64,000 nt of DNA from Yarrowia lipolytica (Eukaryota > Ascomycota > Dipodascomycetes > Dipodascales). The notes under the pieces are model-generated. The model did no database searches, was not told the origin of the DNA, and saw nothing but the letters and a program-made list of their open reading frames with translations. Of this stretch, positions 3,588 to 35,402 are shown one piece after another. The DNA is taken from positions 620,001 to 684,000 of the forward strand of contig NC_090775.1 in assembly GCF_001761485.1 (NCBI RefSeq), written 5' to 3'. The position numbers and the translations under genes were made by a program. Every line of letters begins with the position of its first letter. Within the stretch, counting starts at the first letter, position 1.

Positions 3588-4245
3588 CTAGCCTCGGGCT
3601 CGCTTGTTGTGGACGTACACAATGCCGAAGGGGGCAAGGAATCCAGCAACTGGGTTAGTATAGTACGGAGCAAAAGGTCTGAGCTGATATATCGGACTGT
3701 GCACGGCCATGGGGTATCACACCAGCCATTTCGTGGGTTACTTGGACCATGTCATGCTCTTTACATTCACCATCCAGATCATGACTGGGAAAATGAATGT
3801 CGTGGGCATTACCTTCCGAATAGTGGTGGCCCCATCCGTCTCGTCGTGGGCACAAAAACTCGGTGTGGTGGGCACATGCATCTCGTCGCGGGCCCCGTGT
3901 GGTCATCACATACACCTCGTCGTGGGTACGACATTGGCCATGTGGTGACCACATTGGGTTTTCAATTTGGCACGAAATCATCTAGAATTGTCGTCCAGAG
4001 ACCGTTGAAGCGGCGCAACGCAGCTATGTCGCCGTCTCACGCATCTCCGACACCTGCGGTGCCGGCTGGATGTAGTACTCACGGAAGAAACCAAAATGCA
4101 GGAAGGCGTAGGGGATCTTTCGGTTGTGGACCTTGAAGGGCAGGTTATGGTAAGGGCCCTCGGGGTAGTGGACAGATCGCACCTTGGTGGTGGAGAAGTT
4201 TCGCTTGGCCACGGTGTTGGCGGATCGGACGGTAGCTCGGAACAT
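3588..4245 (-). CDS. COX8: Cytochrome c oxidase subunit VIII (COX8)
   Basis: Small inner-membrane subunit of mitochondrial complex IV, 74 residues after splicing. Exon 1 is 4245-4083 and exon 2 is 3649-3588. The intron (4082-3650, 433 nt) starts GTGAGT and ends TACTAACCCAG. A basic, Ser/Thr-rich N-terminus (FRATVRSANTVAKRNFSTTK) fits a mitochondrial presequence. The mature part VHYPEGPYHNLPFKV then RKIPYAF and HFGFF matches yeast Cox8 (VHFKDGVYENIPFKV, HFGFF). The second exon supplies LAGFLAPFGIVYVHNKRARG, completing the single membrane helix and the basic tail. The junction codon CTT is split after its first base. The Met at 4245 is chosen because the open frame upstream of it has no family match and runs into the shared promoter. 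Divergent from COX9. The intron carries the dispersed GTGGTGGGCAC-type repeats. Confidence 0.93.
3700..3965. repeat. GTGGTGGGCAC-type repeats in the COX8 intron
   Basis: Imperfect copies of a GTGGTGGGCACA/TCGTCGTGGGCA motif spaced about 20-35 nt apart fill the middle of the COX8 intron. The core matches the minisatellite at 600-735 and the copies near 23.5 kb. Confidence 0.6.
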
Positions 4246-4481: not shown

Positions 4482-5376
4482 ATGGCTGCCCCTATTGCTC
4501 CTATTGTCGGCTCTCTCAAGCGACGAATCTTTTTCGATATTACCACTGGTGAGTAACGCGATGCGGATATGACGACCTTCAATGTGGTCGAGACACACCC
4601 GAGATGGTCAGAACACACTCGGTGTGATTCCACGGCAAGAGTCGTGTAACGGCGATAATACCCGATGTGGTGGCCGCGATCAGGGCCATGTGGTGCATTA
4701 CAAGAGCCGTGTGACGCTCGTGTAATACACTCTACACTGCCTTTCCACCAACATACTAACCCAGGTCTGAGTAAGTACTTACACGATATCCGAGTGAATG
4801 AACGACAGAGAACGACAGATGAATGGTAGATGGACGACGGAAGGAACGAGATTATGCGACAGATTTTGGACATGGCTGAGGTGACAGTGCGTGCCTTTGG
4901 ATGACTGGATGCTTTGGACACTCTGGAGGTGAGGACGACAGTAGCCTAGTATGGGACAACATGTGCCCAGCAATGGTACGACAGGCGGCTAGTAATCGGA
5001 CGACACGTGTACCATGTCTTGGGAGGAGAAGAGATTTTTGATCTGCGTCATCCGATCTGTCAGCAATGGTAGATCTGTGATTGGTCAAGTCCCAGAACCC
5101 GACAGTGGATTGCTAGAGAAGTCATTGAGTCGTCAGACGCGTTCATTCGAATTTTCAGAGTCGTCATAGAGTCGTCACAGGCGCCATTTCGTCACAGGCC
5201 AGTTCGAATCATCATCTCACTCATCACCAAGCAAAGCGAGGTGATAAGTACGAAATACTAACACAGCCCTTGGATTCTCCGCCGGTGCCCTCTGGTGGTT
5301 TGGTTACCACAAGCCCACCGTTGCTGCCAAGGATGCTTGGTACGCCGCCCGTGAGCAGGAGAAGAACAACCAGTAG
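4482..5376 (+). CDS. COX9: Cytochrome c oxidase subunit VIIa (COX9) with a 6-nt microexon
   Basis: Small complex IV subunit with one membrane helix. Proposed exons are 4482-4548, 4765-4770 and 5267-5376, giving 60 residues. Intron 1 (4549-4764) runs GTGAGT to TACTAACCCAG; intron 2 (4771-5266) runs GTAAGT to TACTAACACAG. The N-terminus MAAPIAPIVGSLKRRIFFD matches yeast Cox9 (TIAPITGTIKRRVIMD). Exon 3 encodes LGFSAGALWWFGYHKP and a charged matrix tail. The microexon GTCTGA turns the junction ITTA-LGF into ITTGLT-LGF without changing frame. With it, the distance from the Asp after KRR to the His after WWxGY is 21 residues, equal to yeast Cox9 as I recall it; without it the distance is 19. Skipping the microexon would still give a readable 58-residue protein, so both forms could exist. 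Divergent from COX8. Confidence 0.9.
4765..4770 (+). other. COX9: Putative COX9 microexon (6 nt)
   Basis: GTCTGA lies between a perfect branch/acceptor (TACTAACCCAG ending at 4764) and a perfect donor (GTAAGT from 4771). It keeps the reading frame and contributes to Gly-Leu-Thr in the helix. Support is the splice signals plus conserved family spacing; no transcript data were available. Confidence 0.75.
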
Positions 5377-6289
5377 ACTGCATAATATATGACATATTGA
5401 TAAGAAACGACGAGCGTAATCTTAGTAATCTTAGTAATCTTAGTAATCTTAGTAATCTTAGAGTGTACGTCAGTAGAAGCGCGAAATGAGGAGATTTGTG
5501 AATGGAAATGGGTTCATTCGATAACCAGGGAGTGGACTAGTTATTTCTGATTTTCCACAGCTTCTTTCTAGTCCAAGTTGTGTGCATGTTTTAATGTTCA
5601 CTAAAATGTTTGTTTTTGTTGACGAATTTTGTCGAACTTAGTTAACATTGATTGGAGCGTTAATGGCAACCCCAAAACTACTCCAAACAAATAATGTGGG
5701 ATTAAAAATGATGCCCGAATCAAACTAAATCCGATCCCATTGTCCAAATTTTCTCTCCAATTCCCTGTCAAAAGATCTTGGTAATTTTCGGCAATCTTTA
5801 TTTTTTTTAAAAAAAAAAAGAAAAAAAAAGTCATCATAATCCAACTACTCCTCCAGTTTTGGTCATATTTATATAAATACTATACCATTGTGTAGCCCCT
5901 AAAGAAATCAACCAATAGTACTTCTCAATTTCATCCAAAGTTATTTTCAAGAATTATTTTTAATTTTTTAATTTTTTAAATAAAAACCTCCCTTTTTTAT
6001 TATTATTCTAATGATTCCTCAAATTAAACTTTCCACATGCATATACTCACCTCCTCAACCATGGTAATGTACACATCACCACTCCCACATTTCCACAAAC
6101 CAAACGGCTCCAATCAGCCAGGTCCTTTGCATATATCTCTTCTGCTGACGTAAACGACATCTCTGTGGTCGGCTTATTAAGCAATTGACGTCTTACTAAT
6201 CTCAAACGACCAAAATCCGTCGTCAAGACCGCCCTCAAAATCACCATCAATATCACCATCAAAACCGCCGTCAAAACTGCCGCCCCATC
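5377..6289. other. COX9-VPS33 intergenic region
   Basis: AT-rich DNA with no supported gene. It contains the COX9 3' flank with a perfect 9-nt tandem repeat (5416-5460), an A-rich tract around 5800-5830 and the VPS33 promoter. Just upstream of the VPS33 start, short ATCACCATCAA-type repeats appear at 6240-6290. Confidence 0.6.
5416..5460. repeat. 9-nt tandem repeat, five exact copies
   Basis: Five perfect copies of GTAATCTTA lie about 40 nt after the COX9 stop, so probably in its 3' untranslated region or terminator. Exact identity of the copies implies recent expansion. Confidence 0.95.
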
Positions 6290-32707: not shown

Positions 32708-35402
32708 TTAAAACATCTTATCCTTAAACCTTCTGAAAATGGATCGTCGTTTCTCCTTCTTGGAGGACCCCGCGGTAATAGTGACATCGGCAGCGGTGGC
32801 GGGCGCCGAGGCCACCGAGGCATGGGTCGACGCGGTCGCCGGAGCAGCCACTACGTCGGCGGTTGGAGCAACCGGAGCAGAAGCCACTGGAGTAGCTGGA
32901 GCAGCAGAAGCAGCAGTTGTACCTGCGGCAATCGGAGCAGCTCCACCTACAGACGAATCTGTAGTTGCACCCTCCGAACCCCCAACAGGGACATTGAGAT
33001 TCAGAGCGGTGCTGGAAGGCGTACCGGGTGCCACACTCTTGGTGGCGGCGGCAGAATGCACACTAGATGCGGTGGAGGGGTCCAGAGTAGAAGCTGTAGG
33101 AATAGAAGCCCCAGCCCCAGCCCCACCACCAACACCAACACCTCCTTTGGTAGAGGCGGCGGGCGAGCCGAACGAAGGAGAAGCAGAGGCAGAAACGCCC
33201 GCGGAGTCGCCCTCCAGAGGAATGCCCTCTCGTTGAGCCAACGACGCCAAATGGGGACTCATGGGCGTCGGAGAAGACGGAGCTGTCTCGTTCTCGTGGA
33301 ACCGAGAGCCCCCAACCTCACTCACCTCTCCAAACGCCACATCCTTCTTCTTGGGCTTGACCTCGTCGAATCCAGACCCAATGCCGGGACTGGGGGGTAC
33401 CACAGAGGGAGCAGTGGGATTACCCTCGGCACGTGCCTTGCCCTTGTCACGAGACTGCTGCGTGTGCGCGTCGCCTTTGTCTGAATACGCCTCGTCGCGC
33501 AGCTCCGTCACATGGTCGTATTCAGAGTCGTGTCGGCCACGAGTCGGGGTCGACGGCACTGCACGTGACTGGCCCGTGGAGTCGACCGGCGAAATCGCGC
33601 CCGACTCGACCGCGGAGTACTTGGTCGAGATGGTTTGGTCCAGCGTCGCTGCGGCGTGCGGGTCCAATGCCGACGGTTGTAGATCGTGCATCGTCAATGC
33701 GTGTGCCGCTGCTGCTGCCGGGATGGATGCATGGGCTGCCGACGGTCCTGTTTCAGCAGCAGTTTCGGTCTTTTCGGGGAATCCGTAGCTGGCCACGGGA
33801 ATCGCATGTTTGTTGGGTGATTTAGCGGAAGGGGATTTGGGCGATTTGGGGGACTCCATCTTGGACAGGGGATCCACAGAGTCCGTCGGGGAAGTGTCAG
33901 CACCACCAAGGGGGTCAGAAGCGGATGAGTCAACAGGAGCAGTTCCAGGAGCGGAAGAATCAACGAGAACAGCCACAGGAGCCCCCGGAGCTCCATAATC
34001 TTGCCCTCGAACATCCCTGTTAATTCCGGCAATGGGAGCCAACTCGCCGGACTCAACCGCCGCTTGCTTGCTCTCAAGGGCATTCTCAAGCTTGGATTGA
34101 GCAGCAGGGTCCAAATGAGAAGGCTGCAGATCGTGAGAAACACCTTCTGCCGAGTACGGGCCCTCATCACGTGGTCGCACGCCCTCCTCATGGGGAAAGG
34201 CGCCCGGGATGTCCTGGGTGATTTCCTGGATGTCGTCTCCCTCAAGTTGTTCCAGCATCTCGAGCGAGAGCACGTTGTTGATGTTGCCGTGCTCGTCCGT
34301 CTCGGTGGCAAATGACTCGTCCACTTTCCATTCGCCGTCAACCACAAACTTGAACAGCGTTTTTTCCACCGGAATCGCCACAGTGTGCGAGTGGCCGGCG
34401 GAAGAAGGAGAGAGGGTCAGCGACTGGGTCCAGTTGTCGAAAGATCCGGTCACGATGATGTGTGACCCGGAGTGGGGCCTGCGTTAGTATTGACGTCACA
34501 ATTCAGAGCAGGGCATTAGGAGGCAGAAGGGTGATGGAAGGGACAGCAGAGTGACGCCAGGAACAGCAGTCAAGAGAGCTTCTCGGACAAGAAAAGATGC
34601 ATTCTAGAGATTATTCGGAGTGACTGAATCGTTGGAGGTTTCTGAGACGATCCAAAATGACTTTTGAGACTCTAGAGACCCAAGAGTGAACTTCAGAGTG
34701 CTCCAAAGTTGTCTTCTGACACCCCAGAATACTTAAAAAAGACGACTACAGAAATCTCAAAAATGACCCCAAATGATTCCAGAGCCCCAGAATACACCAG
34801 AAAATCTTCTGAGATTGCTAGAGTGGTCGAGAATAACTCCAGAGACTCCAGAGACTCCAGAATGTCAGAATCAGAACACTTTCAAGCCCTCCAGACTCCA
34901 GATCGCCAGATAGACCACCACATGCTCCAAAGCCCATCGTAGTCTCCAAGTCACGTGAACAAGGATACTAATCACGTGGACCACACACCCATCCGGGAGA
35001 CGCCCACCGCAACCGCGTCTCCCCAGCCGCACGTCTTATGGTTATCTGTGCAGTGTGAGATGCGCTGTGTAACATGGAGAACGTAGGAACGGAAGAAACG
35101 GAAGAAACGGGAGAAACAGGAAATAACAAAAGATATCCGCACTCACGTGAGACCATGTCACCCGCAAATCTCCTCTCCGCCAACCTCTGACATTCGCCAT
35201 GTCACAAACCACTCCCTAACATGTCACCGCCCGAATCTCGCTCAAATCGCACCACGCGACTTCCAACTGATTTCACGTGACTCAAACGGACTCCACGTGG
35301 CCCCAACAATCGCTCATAACATCTCCCCGCTCTTCTCCTCCTCGAACCTGGTCTCCTCATCGCCCGGATTCGTACTCACCAAACAAACGTGTATTCAATC
35401 AT
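32708..35402 (-). CDS. CRP1/MDG1-like protein with AMPK-type glycogen-binding domain
   Basis: 597 residues from two exons: 35402-35380 (23 nt) and 34478-32708. The 901-nt intron runs GTGAGT to TACTAACGCAG. Splicing gives MIEYTFVW-PHSGSHIIVTGSFDNWTQSLTLS, restoring the first strands of a CBM48/AMPK-beta glycogen-binding fold, as in yeast Crp1 and Mdg1 (YTFSWP...VILTGTFDDW). The domain continues through KTLFKFVVDGEWKVDESFATETDEHGNINNVL to about residue 90. The remaining 500 residues are low in complexity and rich in Ala, Pro, Ser and Thr. They hold a twice-used HDLQPSxLDP motif (repeated with TxESKxAAVESG-like text) and end in a basic KKEKRRSIFRRFKDKMF. Crp1 binds cruciform DNA and Mdg1 acts in pheromone signalling in S. 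cerevisiae; the function here is unknown. The intron holds a TGACGTCA palindrome near its acceptor. Confidence 0.82.
34479..35379 (-). other. 901-nt intron of the CRP1-like gene
   Basis: Donor GTGAGT at 35379 and acceptor TACTAACGCAG ending at 34479. Inside are imperfect GACTCCAGA-type repeats (about 34620-34870), a 9-nt GGAAGAAAC repeat near 35085-35120 and several CACGTG boxes. A second GTGAGT near 35146 follows an ATG, but would join exon 2 out of frame. Confidence 0.8.

Follow-up and report, generated by a model that had tools for sequence, protein, structure and literature searches.

The window analyzed here is the whole 64-kb stretch G000:C6:620001-684000 of Yarrowia lipolytica, and positions are counted within it. 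Judged by its protein comparisons, the gene at 4482 to 5376 is COX9, which encodes cytochrome c oxidase subunit 9 (fungal subunit VIIa). The features that we propose for the gene are the following:

4482 to 4548, plus strand: COX9 exon 1, 67 nt, starting with ATG, 22 codons plus 1 nt (MAAPIAPIVGSLKRRIFFDITT + G); own-genome match and phmmer match to fungal Cox9 chains
4549 to 4764, plus strand: COX9 intron 1, 216 nt, phase 1, GTGAGT...TACTAACCCAG
4754 to 4764, plus strand: branch point/3' splice site unit of COX9 intron 1, TACTAACCCAG
4765 to 4770, plus strand: putative COX9 internal coding exon GTCTGA, 6 nt; from signals and protein comparison
4771 to 5266, plus strand: COX9 intron 2, 496 nt, phase 1, GTAAGT...TACTAACACAG
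5256 to 5266, plus strand: branch point/3' splice site unit of COX9 intron 2, TACTAACACAG
5267 to 5376, plus strand: COX9 exon 3, 110 nt including the stop codon TAG; own-genome match

Head to head with COX9 lies COX8 (subunit VIIc type; 3588-4245, minus strand), the start codons being 237 bases apart. COX8 has exon 1 at 4245-4083, an intron at 4082-3650, and exon 2 at 3649-3588, and its protein was matched. The correspondence of these proteins to the gene names COX8 and COX9 is our assumption. Both genes encode subunits of complex IV, and they may share a promoter region.

The first-pass annotation reported that, within what would be a single 718-nt intron of COX9, an acceptor is followed by GTCTGA and then by the donor GTAAGT, and that the six bases are an in-frame microexon. 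The coordinates and the 718-nt interval were exact on recheck, and the arrangement is present: TACTAACCCAG-GTCTGA-GTAAGT occupies positions 4754-4776, between two consensus introns, and the interval holds no competing GTRAGT donor or CTAAC..YAG acceptor. The two GTRAGT sites there are at 4549 and 4771, with a further match at 4887 for the looser GTRNGT, and CTAAC..YAG is found only in the acceptors ending at 4764 and 5266. Passages of a cDNA study published in 2010 rank GTGAGT first and GTAAGT next among Y. lipolytica donors and put CTAAC, the branch point, roughly one base upstream of the acceptor (PMC2911113); the acceptor and donor around GTCTGA both fit that host consensus, as those of a microexon should. 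Because both introns are phase 1, the hexamer preserves the reading frame, in agreement with the annotation. The junction would read ATTACCACTG-GTCTGA-CCCTTGGATTC on inclusion and ATTACCACTG-CCCTTGGATTC on skipping. Skipping is also in frame, however, and therefore frame by itself does not decide the matter. The interval might instead be one intron, with 4548 joined to 5267, the hexamer and its signals serving as a decoy, and Cox9 being the 58-aa protein published for strain A101. That reading has the published protein and the in-frame skipping in its favor, but it requires a double signal to have arisen by chance at precisely this site in COX9.

How readily chance produces such an arrangement was gauged with 20,000 dinucleotide shuffles of the COX9 interior (4555-5255). 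With search patterns drawn up post hoc, when the site was already known, 36 shuffles contained a microexon-like arrangement (1-27 nt) and 13 an arrangement that kept the frame; a hexamer having one or two bases ahead of AG turned up once. Over both strands of the window, the loose pattern was observed once against an expectation of 0.17, and at least one occurrence was found in 15 of 100 shuffles of the whole window. Thus, the pattern alone is no proof, and it is the position inside COX9 that counts. Moreover, the window contains four TACTAACNCAG sites where 0.04 are expected; two are in COX9, and the remaining two stand at the end of the COX8 intron and at the end of a plausible 901-nt intron. 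The latter (34479-35379, minus strand) would follow a 23-nt first coding exon, and the 597-residue protein begins MIEYTFVWPHSGSHIIVTGSFDNW.

Inclusion and skipping of the hexamer predict different proteins. Cox9 has 60 aa with the hexamer and 58 aa without it, the helix sequence reading DITTGLTLGFSAGALWWFGYH and DITTALGFSAGALWWFGYH, respectively, and the spacing from Asp to His is 21 in the inclusion form versus 19 in the skip form. When the 60-aa form was compared with PDB by phmmer, nine sequences were returned at E values up to 10, seven of them Cox9, and the best match to a solved fungal Cox9 chain had an E value of 5.7e-14 over residues 7-57 of 60. The five alignments listed, from three species by the names given, are ungapped across the hexamer site, and in the best of them GLTLGF is identical to the inclusion form. 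Cox9 of Komagataella phaffii (P0006), which is identical in sequence to the portion of PDB chain 8ucj_i that was aligned, shares GLTLGF with the inclusion form of Y. lipolytica. Pfam, searched at an E value of 0.001, returned no family for either form.

A broader homologue search, queried with four aligned Cox9 sequences, one of them the inclusion form, returned 43 proteins, three of them Yarrowia-type, and the spacing count and the profile were built on the other 40. All 40 of these fungal homologues have the spacing of 21 that the first-pass annotation had claimed for inclusion, with the qualification that the composition of the query implies a mild bias in the set, though the skip form was retrieved by the same search. 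A stricter count that demanded the basic motif found it in 29 of the 40 proteins, every one of the 29 with a spacing of 21, and the demand was dropped for the full count. Against the profile, the inclusion form scored 73.6 bits and the skip form 62.2 bits; 56 of all 4,096 hexamers (1.4%, GTCTGA among them) score as well as GTCTGA. Together with its flanking bases, the hexamer supplies Gly-Leu-Thr (G/GT CTG A/CC) as residues 23-25. Glycine at the first restored position, the split codon G/GT, is present in 36 of 38 distinct sequences, and a second glycine four residues further on is present in all 38, so that the membrane helix carries a GxxxG pattern. Such a pattern serves helix packing, and the skip form is without the first glycine of the pair. 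Leucine and threonine at the next two restored positions are minority residues (5/38 and 10/38).

We conclude that the 6-nt exon of COX9 very probably exists and is retained in the mRNA, a reading favored by splice signals, protein length, restored residues, and profile score. A single 718-nt intron, by comparison, would leave Cox9 two residues short of every one of the 40 homologues, 11.4 bits worse against the profile, and lacking a nearly invariant glycine, and we consider it very unlikely. The signals, the frame, and the protein fit are observed directly; that the hexamer is part of the main COX9 mRNA is what we infer from them.

Recursive splicing would account for the same signals differently. 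GT directly after an acceptor is a feature of recursive sites, and the hexamer begins in just that way (AG/GTCTGA), such that it might act as a ratchet point and be removed in its turn, with two steps leading to the 58-aa end product. GTCTGA, however, is neither GTRAGT nor GTRNGT and makes a poor donor next to the perfect GTAAGT six bases downstream, and the end product would again be the ill-fitting 58-aa protein. Recursive splicing therefore seems to us exceedingly improbable.

How a 6-nt exon could be retained may be explained by intron definition. The coding sequence of COX9 would be split into exons of 67, 6, and 110 nt, and each intron would be recognized via its own strong donor and fused branch point/acceptor. 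Exon length is without effect on splicing efficiency under intron definition, according to passages of a review that also refers to PRP-40 for the inclusion of exons with no room for enhancers (PMC8624252). As the acceptor and donor are six bases apart, U2 and U1 could hardly both be bound at once, and sequential removal is likely. The two introns would then be excised one after the other, leaving GTCTGA in the mRNA, and the product would be a 60-residue Cox9 with ...DITT-GLT-LGF..., a membrane helix of family-normal length, and the GxxxG glycine in place. If so, both members of a pair of consensus introns may be spliced even when just six bases separate them.

Nothing points to regulation of the COX9 hexamer. 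Nonetheless, a regulated cassette, in which 60-aa and 58-aa Cox9 are both made depending on growth state, would overlap with the inclusion that we favor. Skipping is frame neutral, and passages of the cDNA study describe a precedent in the same species, YALI0B15598g, in which a 39-nt exon with weak signals is skipped in 46 of 48 cDNAs (PMC2911113). The COX9 hexamer differs from that exon in that both of its flanking signals are consensus; moreover, conserved helix residues are missing from the 58-aa form. We regard regulated use of the exon as unlikely, and some skipping as noise is possible.

P0001 (YALIA101S02e19944g1_1, Y. lipolytica A101) is the 58-aa skip form letter for letter and was the sole annotated Y. 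lipolytica Cox9 protein found in a database clustered at 90%, and thus a 60-aa record could sit behind it in its cluster of two member sequences (sources ncbi and nr). One published protein therefore does omit the hexamer, in line with the earlier remark that exons so short are easily missed by gene finders, and the 58-aa annotation is probably an error. P0002 and P0003 appear from their sequences to be open reading frames running out of the last part of intron 2 into exon 3 in near relatives; they keep the junction of intron 2 with exon 3 and are uninformative on the hexamer. The 58-aa form had a single match in a collection of prokaryotic contigs, a Massilia record (L053), over residues 15-30 only. 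If inclusion is correct, it amends the probable sequence of one complex IV subunit in a widely used yeast, and use of the 58-aa model would shift the membrane helix by two residues in structural, proteomic, and engineering work. Among the literature matches listed, no COX9 microexon appears in the titles or the beginnings of abstracts. The main text of PMC5014426 mentions neither COX9 nor cytochrome c oxidase, and the available main text of an RNA-seq study of Y. lipolytica under 12 conditions contains neither "microexon" nor "cytochrome c oxidase" (PMC13309789). The COX9 exon may already be listed in the intron tables that accompany PMC2911113 and PMC13309789.

Tiny exons are already known in Y. 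lipolytica, and COX9 is a further example rather than a new kind. Internal exons of its multi-intron genes are mostly short, and the shortest, 4 nt in YALI0E34170g, is validated by two cDNAs, according to passages of the 2010 study (PMC2911113). Like it, the COX9 exon is tiny, lies internally in a gene with more than one intron, and belongs to the same species. Skipping 4 nt shifts the frame, however, whereas the 6 nt of COX9 are frame neutral and for that reason easy to overlook. In the P450 genes of Phanerochaete chrysosporium, the shortest exon reported is also 6 bp (2 aa), but those genes are a white rot gene family with many short introns and are largely gene models, as the consulted portion of the report presents them (PMC1184071). 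Xlr2 of Trichoderma virens, as described in excerpts, is likewise a fungal gene with a microexon, but there the microexon works as a regulated switch within a transcription factor, whereas the COX9 exon shows no sign of regulation; the introduction of the same paper states that fungal microexons have been tested experimentally only in S. pombe (PMC11121469). In the accessible parts of a study of the Yarrowia clade (PMC4651352) and of PMC8022950, micro-exons appear solely as a read-mapping option.

Whether COX9 is one of several such genes was addressed by a survey of the 20.5-Mb, six-contig genome. The loose pattern occurred 74 times versus 127 times for its reversed control, such that there was no enrichment and most loose matches are expected to be chance. 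The tight pattern occurred 21 times versus 5 times reversed, and other controls gave 3 (AG changed to TG) and 10 (last G of the donor changed to C). We assessed the 41 of 74 loose matches with the acceptor CTAAC-N(0-3)-[CT]AG, namely, COX9 and 40 others; the remaining 33 were left out, 18 by a script filter and 15 by eye for reading [AG]AG. Six of the 40 other candidates have support across the exon, either from alignment or from the need to keep frame, and four more make a weaker case:

ARP3 (L051), G000:C5:4052450-4056480, minus strand: 4-nt exon ACAA, needed for frame; 96.6% along contig C5
TVP15-like, COPI-associated gene (L016): 7-nt internal exon; alignment or frame support
SEC14 (L033): 8-nt internal exon; alignment or frame support
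FHIT-type gene (L049): 9-nt internal exon, frame neutral; alignments have a one-residue gap close by
Miro GTPase (L040): 16-nt internal exon with the P-loop; alignment or frame support
Proteasome alpha gene (L008): 20-nt internal exon; alignment or frame support
RUB1/NEDD8-like gene (L043): 18-nt exon; weaker case, further short exons seem near
TPR protein gene (L042): 14-nt exon; weaker case, further short exons seem near
POM33-like gene: 25-nt exon; weaker case, Pfam match below cut-off
Y14-like gene: 21-nt exon; weaker case, exon outside the Pfam match

The names TVP15, RUB1, POM33/PER33, Y14, and GEM1 are our presumed assignments for survey genes. The last 30 of the 40 candidates are ATG bearing (possible first coding exons), are chance-like, or were given no verdict. 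In ARP3, the four bases are needed for the stretch MDNGTGYTKLGFAG, which aligns to solved Arp3 chains. We take this exon to be probably the 4-nt exon of YALI0E34170g, going by its position and by tag numbering, and if the two are the same, ARP3 serves as a positive control for the pattern scan. The passage of PMC2911113 that describes the YALI0E34170g exon does not name ARP3.

The excess of the tight pattern and the supported cases together indicate that short internal exons are recurrent in Y. lipolytica and that COX9 is one more. The earlier statement that internal exons this short are very rare in yeasts needs qualification, as it does not hold for Y. lipolytica, given a cDNA-validated 4-nt exon and supported exons of 4, 7, 8, 9, 16, and 20 nt. 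The supported cases also offer a handful of genes, all within a single small genome, in which to study how exons far below exon-definition size are kept. Perhaps Y. lipolytica maintains a set of 4- to 20-nt internal exons in conserved housekeeping genes, some of them unannotated, and the COX9 exon is measurably skipped, so that complex IV is made with two versions of the helix, one carrying the GxxxG glycine and one lacking it, in proportion to respiratory demand. Taken as a whole, that proposal strikes us as distinctly improbable.

Finally, about 45 bases past the COX9 stop codon, CTTAGTAAT is present in four exact tandem copies and a partial fifth (5421-5461).
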